Under the pieces are notes generated by a model. It worked only from the letters and a program-made list of their open reading frames with translations. It did not search any database and was not told the origin of the DNA. From contig JAJPOQ010000085.1 of NCBI GenBank assembly GCA_021232515.1, positions 1 through 64,000 of the forward strand: DNA of 64,000 bases, written 5' to 3'. Positions 4,953-63,530 of this stretch are shown piece by piece; position 1 is the first letter of the stretch, and every line of letters starts with the position of its first letter. The position numbers were made by a program, and so were the translations under genes. The stretch comes from Lentisphaeraceae bacterium. GTDB lineage: Bacteria > Verrucomicrobiota > Lentisphaeria > Lentisphaerales > Lentisphaeraceae.

Positions 4953-5752
4953 TTAACTCAAAGTACCCTTAACCATATGAGCTGGATTAACTCTTGCACC
5001 AGCCATCCACATAGAAAAACAACATGGATGATGGTCTCGACCATAATCAGACTGAGTTAACTTACCCTGACTAAAAACTGTTTGCCCCAAACAACGAGAG
5101 TGTCTTCTAAAAGTCCTCGCTGTTTAAGCTCTTTTATTAAACCTGCACTGACTTGGTCAATATCCTGAAACAGGCCCTTCATATTCTCAGACAACCTACT
5201 ATGATGGTCCCGACCACGATGAAACAGCTGCACTGTACGCACATCATTTTCAACAAGTTTTCGCGCCGTCAAACAATTGTATGCAAAGGTTCCTGGAGTA
5301 CTTACATCCTTACCACAAAGTTTCTTTAAGTGGTCAGGTTCACTAGCAACATCTGTGTCTGCTGGAATCGATTCCTGCATTCTAAAAGCCATTTATTGTT
5401 GAGCAATAGTCGTTTGTATCTCAGGGTCTCCCACTTTCTCAAAATGGTTCTGATTAATCCTAGAGCTCAAATCAATCATTTTCCTTCTTACATCTCGACT
5501 TACTCCAGTAAGATTTGATAAGTACAAAACGGGATCGCCACTAGAGCGAAAGTTGACTCCTTGATGTTTTGAGGGAAGAAATCCCGATCCCCAAAGGCGA
5601 CTTCAAAGACCTTGAACATTTACTTTTCCTGACCACTTCAAGCAATTTAAAACGACAAATTCTGATAAGTTCTTATTGAGACTACCTAGTCCATGACTCA
5701 ACCAAGAACCTAAACTTGCCATTCCCGGAAGTTGATTCCTTGTACAAGTCAT
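4953..5752 (-). pseudogene. Decayed DUF1501 (sulfatase-like) gene
   Basis: The minus strand encodes, in one frame, a recognisable C-terminal two thirds of a DUF1501 protein: [10 protein letters not shown], then [71 protein letters not shown]. It is interrupted by an in-frame TGA at 5603-5605 and a TAA at 5393-5395 immediately before MAFRMQ. A small deletion near 5083-5086 removes the conserved EFGR residues and shifts the frame. The reading then continues as [16 protein letters not shown] and [10 protein letters not shown] before a stop at 4953-4955. The N-terminal third is missing and homology ends at 5752, at the edge of the insertion sequence. Only the 111-residue piece at 5057-5392 remains open. 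Confidence 0.85.
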
Positions 5753-5755
5753 GTA

Positions 5756-5802
5756 CCTCCGGCAGAGCCGGAGGCTTGAAAGTTGAACCGCTCAAAGCGG
5801 TT
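5756..5802. repeat. Two hairpins at the 3' (right) end of the insertion sequence
   Basis: CCTCCGGC-aga-GCCGGAGG (5756-5774, 8-bp perfect stem, 3-nt loop) and AACCGCT-caa-AGCGGTT (5786-5802, 7-bp perfect stem, 3-nt loop). They lie 17-63 bases after the transposase stop. Such imperfect-end hairpins are what TnpA recognises in IS200/IS605 elements; one of them may also act as a transcription stop. Confidence 0.7.
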
Positions 5803-5818
5803 AATAAACTATCTTAAG

Positions 5819-6214
5819 TTAAACTTCACAAAATAAGTTTCCTTGGTTGTCGTCATCTTTCTTTTTATCATTTTTCTCTTGGTTTTTTATGTAACTCCTA
5901 ACCATATATTCATCATGCCCTACAGTTGTTACAAAATAAGCTCGAGCCCAAAAGCTTTCTCCTGTGAAATTTTTCTTCTTACTTCTAAAGTTACGTGCAA
6001 TATAAATTGCACTTTTACCTTTTAGATAACCAACAAGATTACTAACACTCATCTTAGGTGGAATAGAGATTAACATATGAACATGGTCACGCATGATATG
6101 ACCTTCTTCTATCTTGCAGCCCTTTTGACGAACCAACTCGTAAAATATAGAGTCTAAGTCTTTACAAAGTGCTCCAAAGAGCGCTTTTTTACGATACTTG
6201 AGAATGAATACCAC
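5819..6214 (-). CDS. tnpA: IS200/IS605 family transposase TnpA, 5' end interrupted
   Basis: Single-strand DNA transposase of the HUH/Y1 type. The HUH metal site is DHVHMLISIPP, the family block LKGSAIYIARNF follows (K-G-K-S-A), and the catalytic tyrosine lies in the C-terminal helix RSYIKNQEK. Open reading starts at a GTG, giving 131 residues, but the same frame continues upstream as SLNYTKWDCKYH, which is conserved in the family, to a TAA at 6251-6253. Beyond that stop lies MTDY from an ATG at 6263-6265. The ancestral gene was probably 5819-6265 (149 codons) with AAA to TAA at codon 5. Translation from the internal GTG would lose the first beta strand, so the gene is probably inactive or weakly expressed. 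Confidence 0.85.
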   Translation of the reverse strand: MVFILKYRKKALFGALCKDLDSIFYELVRQKGCKIEEGHIMRDHVHMLISIPPKMSVSNLVGYLKGKSAIYIARNFRSKKKNFTGESFWARAYFVTTVGHDEYMVRSYIKNQEKNDKKKDDDNQGNLFCEV

Positions 6215-48027: not shown

Positions 48028-48708
48028 ATGATAAAAAAACTAACATATTTCGCATTTATCACTCTCTTTAGTTTAGCTAATTTAGCTATATCTGAGGAGA
48101 GCTCTGCCAATGATCCCGTAGATAAAAACACCATCGTCGTTGATTATAAAGATATTGATGATGCAAAGATCTGGGAGCCTAAAATAAAGAGAGGCAAGGC
48201 CAGAACAAAAGTTTATCTCGATGACAAACTCAAAACTAAAGTTCTACGTGTTCAGAGTAATCAAGACTCCTACTATTTCCAAAAGAGCCTTAGCCTTGAT
48301 CTTAGTAAAATAGAAAAAGTTCAATGGCAATGGAAAGTCACTCGACACCCTGCTGGAGGAGATGTCCGTCGAGGCTCTAAAGACGACCAAGCCGCCCAAA
48401 TTTTGTTTGCATTTGAAGGCCGCAACCTCATCAGTTATATCTGGGATCCAACAGCCCCAAAAGACTATGTTAAAGACGCATCTATTCCGTTTATCGTCTC
48501 CCAAAAAGTATTCGTCATACAATCTGGCAGCGACAAAAAAGACTTAAACAAGTGGTTCTCCATTACACGAGATGTTAGAGCTGACTATAAAAAGCTTTAT
48601 GGCAAAGAAGCGCCAAAGCTTGCTGGTGTTGCCATTCAAATAAACTCTCAACACACTGAAAGCTTTTGTGAAGCTCACATCAGCCCCATAACATTTATAA
48701 AAAAGTAG
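48028..48708 (+). CDS. DUF3047 family secreted protein
   Basis: 226 residues with a Sec signal peptide (FAFITLFSLANLAISEE). DUF3047 pattern: VQWQWKVTRHPAGGDVRRG, DDQAAQILFAFEG, ISYIWDP, FVIQSGS, WFSITRDVRADYKKLYG and PKLAGVAIQINSQHTES. A beta-rich fold without known activity. It is followed 25 bases later by a permease gene, so it may be the first gene of the permease-ferredoxin cassette. Confidence 0.85.
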   Translation: MIKKLTYFAFITLFSLANLAISEESSANDPVDKNTIVVDYKDIDDAKIWEPKIKRGKARTKVYLDDKLKTKVLRVQSNQDSYYFQKSLSLDLSKIEKVQWQWKVTRHPAGGDVRRGSKDDQAAQILFAFEGRNLISYIWDPTAPKDYVKDASIPFIVSQKVFVIQSGSDKKDLNKWFSITRDVRADYKKLYGKEAPKLAGVAIQINSQHTESFCEAHISPITFIKK

Positions 48709-48733: not shown

Positions 48734-50239
48734 TTGACAATTTTTTCTAAAAGAGACTTCATCTTTACTGGAAGACTGCTACTCACATCGGCTCGATCCC
48801 CTATCACCTACCTTCACAGAGGTGGACTTGCTTTGGCTTTATTGCTCTTCACTGCAGGAGTAAACTCTGGTGCAAATACTTCAGGTTCACAGTTATTTTC
48901 TATTCTCGTCTACCTGAACCTTTTTTATATTTCCATATTCACTATTCAACAATTTAGCGCCATCATTGCCGGTGAAAAAGAACAAGGTACACTTGGACTC
49001 TTAATGATCACACCAAGGCACCCTATTTCAATTATAGCGGCAAAGTCGGTTCCACTTTTATTCGAAATACTTGCAGGCTTCCTCATTGAAGTGCCTATAC
49101 TGCTCATCTGCATAACTATGGGTGGAGTCGACCTTACTCAAGTACTACTCGTAATGCTTTTTATCCCCTTCCACGCTCTTTTCTTAGCCACTATCTGTAT
49201 TCACTTCTCTACCATTACGAATGATACCAAATCGGCCATTGCCTTAAGTTTTATAAGCGCTGGAGCATTTTACTCTCTACCTAGTATCATTGATAGCGTT
49301 TTAAACATCTTTTACCCAAAGCTCTTAAACTTTCAATTCACCGAAGTCATGGCGCCATTTAACTCGTTTAAGATACTGAACAACATCATGGATTTCCAAG
49401 GTAAACTTGCTGAGGTCGCCATATATGCTGGCGCTGTTTCCATCTTTGGCGTCCTAGTCCTTTTAAGATGCTTAAGAAGCCTCAATAAAATGGACTCAAC
49501 TACAACTGTTAAAGAAGATGGAAGCCGTAAAGGAAAGAACTCTGTTAAAAGAAAGAGACGTGCTTGGAAAGATGCTTTAGTTGGCAAAGACATTCATCTT
49601 GGCGGAGGCAAAAAAGCCATTATTCTAAAAGTTATTGCTTATCCCTCCGTTATTTTCATATTTGCTTATATAGGTGACATACTCGATAAACCTGCGATGA
49701 TCCCACCTATGGCAGCACCAACTCTCATATTCTTTTTCTTTATAGAGTTCCTAGTGTATACAGGACAAAACTTTTCCGTAGAGTACAAAGAGAAACAACT
49801 CTCCGCTCTACTAAGCCTACCATATACAAACATGCAGTTGATATTCAAAAAAATAAAAGGCGCATTTATCTTTTCACTTGTGCCTCTCATTTACTTTTGT
49901 ATCTTTTGTTTTTCTTCTAAGGCCGTAACAAAAAATGCTCTTGAATTAATTTTCAACATCCACATGCTAACCGCTATCGGCTTCTTTTCATGTCTTCTAG
50001 TAACCGTTATATTCTCTGGATTAACCGGTAAAATCAAACGAAGTTTCTTGCAACAGCTAAGTATGGCACTTCTTGGTATATTCGTCATAGTTCTTGTTAT
50101 TTACCCAATCATCTCTTTATATGATCAAAGCATTTACTTAGGTACTATTACTTGCTTAGTTGCTTGTTTTGCTTACTGTAAATTAATACTTTATTTAACG
50201 AGTAGCTGGATGACTCGATTGGCACAACAGGAAAACTAA
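48734..50239 (+). CDS. ABC-2-like permease with two internal modules
   Basis: 501 residues from TTG 48734, preceded by a purine-rich AGGGCGG. About 12 membrane segments. Two module signatures are visible: GEKEQGTLGLLMITPRHP in the first half and EYKEKQLSALLSLPYTN in the second, each followed by membrane segments, so it appears to be an internally duplicated ABC-2 type permease. A charged loop (RKGKNSVKRKRRAWKD) separates them. No ATPase gene lies next to it. Its stop is followed directly by the ferredoxin gene with no spacer. Confidence 0.75.
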   Translation: MTIFSKRDFIFTGRLLLTSARSPITYLHRGGLALALLLFTAGVNSGANTSGSQLFSILVYLNLFYISIFTIQQFSAIIAGEKEQGTLGLLMITPRHPISIIAAKSVPLLFEILAGFLIEVPILLICITMGGVDLTQVLLVMLFIPFHALFLATICIHFSTITNDTKSAIALSFISAGAFYSLPSIIDSVLNIFYPKLLNFQFTEVMAPFNSFKILNNIMDFQGKLAEVAIYAGAVSIFGVLVLLRCLRSLNKMDSTTTVKEDGSRKGKNSVKRKRRAWKDALVGKDIHLGGGKKAIILKVIAYPSVIFIFAYIGDILDKPAMIPPMAAPTLIFFFFIEFLVYTGQNFSVEYKEKQLSALLSLPYTNMQLIFKKIKGAFIFSLVPLIYFCIFCFSSKAVTKNALELIFNIHMLTAIGFFSCLLVTVIFSGLTGKIKRSFLQQLSMALLGIFVIVLVIYPIISLYDQSIYLGTITCLVACFAYCKLILYLTSSWMTRLAQQEN

Positions 50240-50509
50240 ATGACCTATAAGATCACTTATAAAAAGTCGAACATAGAACTTGAGTACTGCAGCGAAAAGC
50301 ACAAGAACTTAAGTATTCTCGACATTGCCTTTGATCACGACCTCTTCCTCAAAGCAGGCTGTCGTTCTGGGTATTGCGGGACCTGCCAATACATACTAAT
50401 AAGCGGCGACGTTAAGTACTTTTACGACCCTCCTCCAACTGCAGCTGACAAAGGGTCAATTCTTATTTGTAGTTGCTACCCTACAAGTGACATCGTCATC
50501 GATGCATAA
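50240..50509 (+). CDS. Plant-type [2Fe-2S] ferredoxin
   Basis: 89 residues. CRSGYCGTC supplies three ligand cysteines (C-x4-C-x2-C) and LICSC the fourth, about 29 residues later, the plant/xylene-monooxygenase type spacing. Soluble, one cluster. It is placed without a spacer between two permease genes (stop at 50239, next start at 50510), so it must be cotranscribed and probably translated with them. Electron donor and acceptor unknown. Confidence 0.93.
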   Translation: MTYKITYKKSNIELEYCSEKHKNLSILDIAFDHDLFLKAGCRSGYCGTCQYILISGDVKYFYDPPPTAADKGSILICSCYPTSDIVIDA

Positions 50510-51976
50510 ATGATTTTACCAAGGGCATTTATTCGCAAAACTGCGCTTATACAAAGGGGGATGTCTAAGATTTTCAAATCCCCTTCAAACATAGCCTTCT
50601 TCTCCGTCGTCATTTTAGCAAGTTTCTTTGCCATTTACTCTATTTCAAATACCAGAGTGGATGCAAAAGGAAAGCTTTTATTCTCTGCCATGTCTTTGAT
50701 AAATATAGGTGCGATCACTCTCTATGGAATTGGCGTTTTCTCGAAAGTTATCTCTGAAGAAACTCAAGATAAGACTATGCAGCTTTTGAGGTTAACACCT
50801 CTTTCTCATCGAAGTATACTTTTAGGCAAAGTTCTTCCACCACTCATAAACATCTTTCTATTAATAGTACTACAACTTCCTCTTCTCACTCTTTGTGTCA
50901 CTCTAGGTGGTGTCGAATTAGCCCAAATCATCAAAGTCTACTATACCATTATCCTGTATACCTTGTGTCTTTCGTCTATTGGCCTATATGCCTCAATTAT
51001 TAGTGATGAAAACTGGTTGGCTGGCTTCAATTTTATCTTTATGCTCTTTTTCATTTATTTGATCTCTGGAGTGATATCAATGTTTGAAAAGTTAGATTCA
51101 ATCTATGAAAAATTAAATCACCTACGCGAAAGCAACCACTTCTCACAAATAAAAGCTATAATCCAAGGTGATCCCACCTCACTTATATGGACAACTCTAT
51201 TATCTATTTCTATATGCTTTATTTTCTGCAAGCTTTCACTAAAGTCCTTCAAGCAATATGACGATGAAACACTTATCCATCAAAAGAAACCCAAGGAAGT
51301 GAAAAGAACATTTCGGTTTAAAGATAATCCATTGAGTCAAAAAGAGTCTCGGTTTCACTTTGGTGGGAAGATCTCTCAGGCTATTTACATAGGTGCACTA
51401 TCATTTATTTTTATTCTAGGATATGCTGCAGTTCTAAATTTAAGATATGATCGGCACGAAATAGCATTCTCAAATATCTTCCCACTCTCTTTAGCTCTCT
51501 GTTGTCTTAGTAACTACTACCTACTAGGCAACACCATTCGCAATGAAATAAATAGTCAAAACTGGTCAACATTAAAATTGACACCATTTACGGAAGAAAA
51601 GATAGTTTTAAACAAAATTCTTGCGACTATTAAACACTTATTTCCCTTGTACCTCATTCTCATTGCCTACTACTCTCTAAACCTACCTGACTCACACTAT
51701 CAGGTCTCTGATTGGCTCAGAAGCTACTCTCTTTTCTATCTCTCTCCGGGTATACTCACCCTCTTTTTCTCAACTACTTTATTAACACAACTTATAAGCA
51801 CCAAGTATATTGGGCATACCATAAATATCGGTTATATATTTTTACTAATCTTTCCTTTCACCAATAAAACCTTACGCTTCAGCAACTGGTTTATCATCTT
51901 AGCTAACTGTCTACTATTTCTCATTGCTTATATTATCTACAAAATTACGATTAGGAAGTTAAAGAAAGCTTCCTAA
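50510..51976 (+). CDS. Second ABC-2-like permease of the cassette
   Basis: 488 residues, about 12 membrane segments. Module signatures SEETQDKTMQLLRLTPLSH in the first half and NEINSQNWSTLKLTPFTEE in the second parallel those of the permease before the ferredoxin, as does a central H-x-G-G-K pattern (FHFGGKISQ versus HLGGGKKAI). The two are therefore paralogues. It starts immediately after the ferredoxin stop. Probably the two permeases form a membrane complex; the energy source is not seen. Confidence 0.75.
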   Translation: MILPRAFIRKTALIQRGMSKIFKSPSNIAFFSVVILASFFAIYSISNTRVDAKGKLLFSAMSLINIGAITLYGIGVFSKVISEETQDKTMQLLRLTPLSHRSILLGKVLPPLINIFLLIVLQLPLLTLCVTLGGVELAQIIKVYYTIILYTLCLSSIGLYASIISDENWLAGFNFIFMLFFIYLISGVISMFEKLDSIYEKLNHLRESNHFSQIKAIIQGDPTSLIWTTLLSISICFIFCKLSLKSFKQYDDETLIHQKKPKEVKRTFRFKDNPLSQKESRFHFGGKISQAIYIGALSFIFILGYAAVLNLRYDRHEIAFSNIFPLSLALCCLSNYYLLGNTIRNEINSQNWSTLKLTPFTEEKIVLNKILATIKHLFPLYLILIAYYSLNLPDSHYQVSDWLRSYSLFYLSPGILTLFFSTTLLTQLISTKYIGHTINIGYIFLLIFPFTNKTLRFSNWFIILANCLLFLIAYIIYKITIRKLKKAS

Positions 51977-62795: not shown

Positions 62796-63530
62796 ATGGC
62801 TGAACTTATGATAGAAGCCAAAGAACTCTGTAAATACTACGGTTCTTTTAAGGCGGTTGAAAACATGTCCTTTTCTATACCAAAGGGACAAGTCGTGGCC
62901 TTTCTCGGCCCAAATGGTGCCGGCAAGTCGACTACTATGAAACTTCTAACGGGATTTATCTCAGCAAGTAACGGTGAAGCACATATAGCTGGCTACGACA
63001 TGGCTGCAGACAGACTAAAAGCTGCAGAAGTCTTAGGTTACCTTCCAGAAAACGGTCCGCTTTACCCAGACATGACTCCACGTGAGTCTCTGACATTTAC
63101 CGGCGAAATCCGAGGCCTTAAAGGCGAAAGGCTCGCCTCGGCAATCGATCGCGTTGTGAAAATCTGTGACCTAAAAGAAGTTTATGATAAAGCCATCGGC
63201 AAACTCTCAAAGGGTTACCGTCAAAGAGTTGGTATGGCCCAAGCACTTATCCACGATCCTGAAGTTCTCATCATGGATGAACCGACTTCCGGTTTGGACC
63301 CTAACCAGATAAGAACTGTCCGTGACACCATAAAAGAACTTGGTAAAAATAAGACAATTCTTTTAAGTACTCACATACTCCAAGAAGTAGAAGCCATGTG
63401 CGACAGAGTTCTTTTTATCAGTGAAGGTCGATTAATTTTCGACGGCACTGTTGAAGAATTTAAAAAGAAAAATGAAAACCTAGATGATGTATTTTATGCT
63501 CTCACTCACGATAAGGAGGTCGTTTCATAA
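62796..63530 (+). CDS. ABC transporter ATP-binding protein (GldA/NatA type)
   Basis: 244 residues. Walker A GPNGAGKSTTMKL near residue 38, Q-loop region LGYLPENGPLY, signature LSKGYRQRVGMAQAL, Walker B VLIMDEPTSGLDP and H-loop STHILQEVE. Good GGGAG site upstream. It pairs with the permease that starts at 63530, overlapping by one base (TAATG). Similar proteins act in gliding motility or in ABC-2 exporters; substrate unknown. Confidence 0.95.
   Translation: MAELMIEAKELCKYYGSFKAVENMSFSIPKGQVVAFLGPNGAGKSTTMKLLTGFISASNGEAHIAGYDMAADRLKAAEVLGYLPENGPLYPDMTPRESLTFTGEIRGLKGERLASAIDRVVKICDLKEVYDKAIGKLSKGYRQRVGMAQALIHDPEVLIMDEPTSGLDPNQIRTVRDTIKELGKNKTILLSTHILQEVEAMCDRVLFISEGRLIFDGTVEEFKKKNENLDDVFYALTHDKEVVS

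Follow-up and report, generated by a model that had tools for sequence, protein, structure and literature searches.

Double-length ABC-2-type permeases without adjacent ATPase genes, and a ferredoxin gene joined to one of them, in a Lentisphaeraceae genus

Among known systems, the two permeases considered here come close to the membrane subunits of ABC-2 exporters (Pfam ABC2_membrane; GldF-like), which they resemble in matches to ABC2_membrane_2 and ABC2_membrane_4 over the cut-offs and in an E-rich motif placed before TLxLL...P. GldF is the best NCBIfam match of permease 2, yet the score, 41 of 288.5 bits, is far under the GldF cut-off. GldF has 240 residues, whereas the permeases have 488-501, about twice as many, and are encoded without an adjacent ATPase gene. 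A further close system occurs elsewhere in the same genus. It is a three-gene ABC exporter unit (C59, L034:6863-10858, in the genome studied, G000; C17, L041:3739-7738, in its congener, G001) encoding a 535-aa protein without a Pfam match, a GldA/DrrA-like ATPase and a double ABC-2 permease. This last permease belongs to the same family as those of the locus, is of similar length and has the same invariant positions; however, the unit includes an ATPase gene, which overlaps that of the permease, and lacks a ferredoxin. For the ferredoxin of the locus, plant-type [2Fe-2S] ferredoxins (e.g. solved structure 1rfk) are matched over the whole length with the four cysteines present, although it is about 10 residues shorter and reaches 38.5 of 81.15 bits with fdx_plant, missing the cut-off. 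It has its length, cysteine motif and best NCBIfam match in common with YfaE, but scores below the cut-off of that family and is not encoded next to nrdB.

The window, that is the whole 64-kb stretch of DNA analysed, belongs to a South Atlantic Lentisphaeraceae MAG, one of a set of four (PMC9476954), with an assembly of 5,264,327 bases in 177 contigs. Three genes follow each other on its + strand: permease 1, double-length and ABC-2-type (48734-50239; 501 aa, TTG start), a [2Fe-2S] ferredoxin of the plant/YfaE type (50240-50509; 89 aa, ATG start) and permease 2, again double-length and ABC-2-type (50510-51976; 488 aa, ATG start). The initial annotation had described these genes as directly adjacent, and both the coordinates and the 0-bp junctions were confirmed, the ferredoxin and permease 2 ORFs each beginning one base past the preceding stop codon. 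Zero spacing of this kind is a common arrangement in the window, with 9 of the 36 same-strand neighbour pairs lying 0 bp apart or overlapping. Upstream, at 48028..48708 (+), a DUF3047 protein is encoded (Pfam PF11249, E=1.2e-28) by the first gene of a block conserved in the congener; its N-terminus, judged by eye, is hydrophobic, and the protein is probably secreted. Promoter and terminator scans gave site numbers not above those in shuffles, and a search against the PADLOC defence systems gave no match. At 5057-6214 of the window, a DUF1501-like gene fragment adjoins an ORF that resembles, by eye, an IS200-type transposase.

Both permeases passed Pfam cut-offs, permease 1 with ABC2_membrane_2 and ABC2_membrane_4 and permease 2 with ABC2_membrane_2. 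They are paralogous, as had been proposed, but distantly so, with 25% identity and a local-alignment score 25.7 standard deviations above shuffles. A recent tandem duplication was rejected as their origin, the tree not placing permease 2 as the sister of permease 1. The internal duplication ascribed initially to both of them is supported for permease 2 (N half versus C half, z = 6.1) and is at most suggested for permease 1 (z = 2.0). The ABC-2 Pfam matches of permease 1 lie in both halves and one E-rich motif is in register between them, and a half-versus-half comparison by hhalign gave one 34-column match in register at a probability of 6.8%. In each permease two ABC-2 domains have probably been fused; of the two proteins, permease 2 is the more secure case. 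Profiles of either permease half found no match among solved structures, and the structure predicted for permease 1, from an alignment of two rows, had a pLDDT of 39, too low for a usable model.

The second genome of the genus compared was G001, the Lentisphaerales MAG ALOHA_ZT_19 from Station ALOHA. Because the genus is represented by these two genomes, both of them MAGs, fragmented and to a degree incomplete or contaminated, conservation here means a single comparison. The order in the congener is RadC, DUF3047, the permease 1 orthologue and the ferredoxin; after an intergenic gap come DUF5684 and other, unrelated genes. The locus contains neither a second permease nor an ATPase. The identities between the two genomes are 75% for RadC, 60% for DUF3047, 34% for permease 1 and 62% for the ferredoxin. 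A search for a permease 2 orthologue in the congener retrieved just other family members, at 24% identity; the shared block therefore stops after the ferredoxin, and permease 2 stands at the synteny break. The pair of permease 1 and ferredoxin is conserved in both genomes of this one genus (2/2), but the permease-ferredoxin-permease cassette that had been put forward is not a conserved unit, because permease 2 is absent from the congener. The ferredoxin is thus not kept between two permeases in this relative; an ATPase gene preceding the unit, as in an ordinary exporter, was not found there either. Elsewhere in the two genomes, identity is 80% for the ATPase of the C59 unit, 40% for the permease of that unit and 33.5% for a further orphan permease, so that permease 1 diverges at the usual pace of its family. 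A contig scan across genomes found only the congener; viral contigs contained no relative, and no DUF3047 match was obtained in the sister genus.

The junction between permease 1 and the ferredoxin (50220..50252, +) was aligned with that of the congener. The ribosome-binding stretch CAACAGGAAAACTA sits within the last permease 1 codons and is followed by the ferredoxin ATG. In both genomes the DNA reads CAACAGGAAAACTA[A/G]ATGA..TATAAGAT, near-identical despite the 34% identity of the permeases; the junction is the same in the congener except for the stop codon, and the conserved TATAAGAT then follows. Permease 1 carries a conserved AQQEN at its C-terminus, whose codons contain the AGGAAA ribosome-binding stretch of the ferredoxin; because of this overlap, the motif may have been kept for the sake of ferredoxin translation and not for the function of the permease. 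Inspection of the sequence ahead of permease 2 showed no AGGA stretch like that of the ferredoxin. The conserved junction speaks for a degree of selection keeping permease 1 and the ferredoxin together.

The lack of an adjacent ATPase gene was found as annotated initially: none lies within 10 kb of the locus and none near the congener copy. The closest ABC ATPase, about 11 kb downstream (62796-63530), is accompanied by a permease of its own. A family profile identified six members in G000 and four, one of them decayed, in G001, and nothing above 116 bits in the other genomes of the 60 searched. Five of the six G000 members (permeases 1 and 2, C57, C81 and C25) are without an adjacent ATPase and only C59 has one; in G001 an ATPase accompanies C17 but not C13 or C216. 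C57 and C216 are counterparts, both without an ATPase beside them. The lack is shared by most members, and on the simplest reading it characterises the family as a whole, the cassette being no exception. Double permeases of the class that are less closely related do usually have an ATPase beside them. The orphans have the invariant positions of the ATPase-linked members, among them L89, E350, P363 and K373 in the two E...P motif regions, which is compatible with a permease energised by a bound ATPase. The initial annotation had offered two alternatives, a redox-linked membrane complex or an export system with its ATPase elsewhere, and with five of six family members lacking an ATPase and C59 possessing one, the second is the better fit. 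On the same simplest reading, the orphan permeases would use an ATPase in trans. The decayed G001 member (C217, L154:5443-6667) has a frame interrupted by TAG, and this broken frame suggests that orphan permeases of the family undergo turnover.

The explanation we favour, with a probability of about 0.6, is that permeases 1 and 2 are ABC-2 exporter membrane subunits relying on an ATPase encoded elsewhere, and that the ferredoxin is a co-translated, stand-alone protein. The permeases would belong to a family expanded in this Lentisphaeraceae genus. Like most of their paralogues, they lack an accompanying ATPase gene and probably depend on one from another locus. The C59 ATPase (C59:8269-9246) is the best candidate for the motor in trans serving permeases 1 and 2, because it is the sole ATPase adjoining a member of the same family; G000 has 54 ABC_tran matches, and no lone ATPase of the C59 kind was present on ten further contigs bearing ABC ATPases. 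With a fused ABC-2 pair, one polypeptide could by itself build the membrane pore and bind two copies of the ATPase. The ferredoxin would be translated from the permease 1 message, with its ribosome-binding stretch within the 3' end of the permease 1 coding sequence, and would act as a soluble one-electron carrier for a partner enzyme encoded elsewhere while being co-expressed with the DUF3047 protein and permease 1. As to permease 2, either this species gained it behind the ferredoxin or the congener lost it.

The assignment of the small protein as a [2Fe-2S] ferredoxin was correct, given a Pfam Fer2 score of 36.8 bits (cut-off 21) and the four cluster cysteines C41, C46, C49 and C77. Its cluster motif is C-R-S-G-Y-C-x2-C ... 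C, with C-x4-C-x2-C...C ligands; the predicted structure, with a pLDDT of 38, was likewise not usable. The protein represents a genus-specific ferredoxin lineage. Its nearest homologues, 34-37% identical, were found in three genomes of the sister genus, where the gene lies directly 5' of that for a 202-aa 4Fe-4S protein (L064:7162-8033, L066:7237-8111 and L063:6077-6951). This 4Fe-4S protein is also present in G000 (C38) and G001 (C202), with no ferredoxin adjoining. The ferredoxin of the locus might accordingly be a partner of the 4Fe-4S protein, encoded here at a distance, so that its adjacency to a permease would reflect operon rearrangement only. We regard this as unlikely, since the tree leaves an open fork, giving no support for orthology of the two ferredoxin lineages, and the conserved permease 1 junction points to some selection on the pairing. 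Across 289 genomes of the phylum, no ABC-2-like neighbour was found within 1.5 kb of any of the 14 small-ferredoxin loci inspected; other genera, as covered by the sister genus and these 14 loci, thus showed no pairing of a ferredoxin with a permease, and a literature search found no ferredoxin-ABC-2 pairing.

In a redox-linked complex, the ferredoxin would bind to permease 1 or to both permeases and either give electrons or sense redox state, thereby gating or driving transport without ATP. Such a complex would agree with the placement of the ferredoxin gene right after permease 1 in the two genomes, where its translation start is conserved, and with the lack of an ATPase beside either copy of the permease 1-ferredoxin unit. 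On the other hand, the congener has no permease 2, permease 1 retains the motif positions common to its ATPase-linked paralogues, and paralogues without a ferredoxin are equally often orphans. Permease 1 also diverges as fast as the other paralogues while the ferredoxin does not, and no electron acceptor was identified in the permeases. The complex found no positive support in the analysis and appears improbable, an exporter with an ATPase in trans being the better fit. It is very improbable that the ferredoxin serves as an additional YfaE, the maintenance protein of class I ribonucleotide reductase, placed in the operon by chance. YfaE (PRK10713) does top its NCBIfam matches, with 55.7 bits for the window protein and 53.4 for that of the congener, but both are under the cut-off of 75, and the nrdB-adjacent ferredoxins of the same two genomes score 70.7 and 71.8 bits. 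The nrdAB genes of G000 lie on C124, accompanied by another ferredoxin, and in the tree all six nrdB-linked ferredoxins form a group (99/99) that leaves out the window and congener proteins; an identity as the reductase-maintenance YfaE was rejected on these grounds. The least probable proposal of all is that export comes under redox control through the binding of a genus-specific ferredoxin to an ABC-2 permease, or that the permease anchors a ferredoxin-dependent reaction, with one ATPase shared by the fused-permease family.

As an unusual unit the three-gene cassette does not survive, since the triplet is not conserved and the absence of an ATPase is usual in the genus; the pairing of permease 1 with the ferredoxin is its one odd conserved part. 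Two smaller points stand, namely the lineage-specific expansion of double ABC-2 permeases that have no ATPase gene and the ferredoxin start conserved inside the end of a permease gene. A single ATPase may serve several permeases, so that the sharing of ATPases by ABC-2 exporters could be tested on this family; the ferredoxin-permease pairing, for its part, would count as new only once the two proteins had been linked physically or functionally. In other families of the phylum (L101, L105 and L112), several genomes encode small ferredoxins with a C-R-M-G-N-C-T-S-C motif close to genes that resemble rpsP and trmD.
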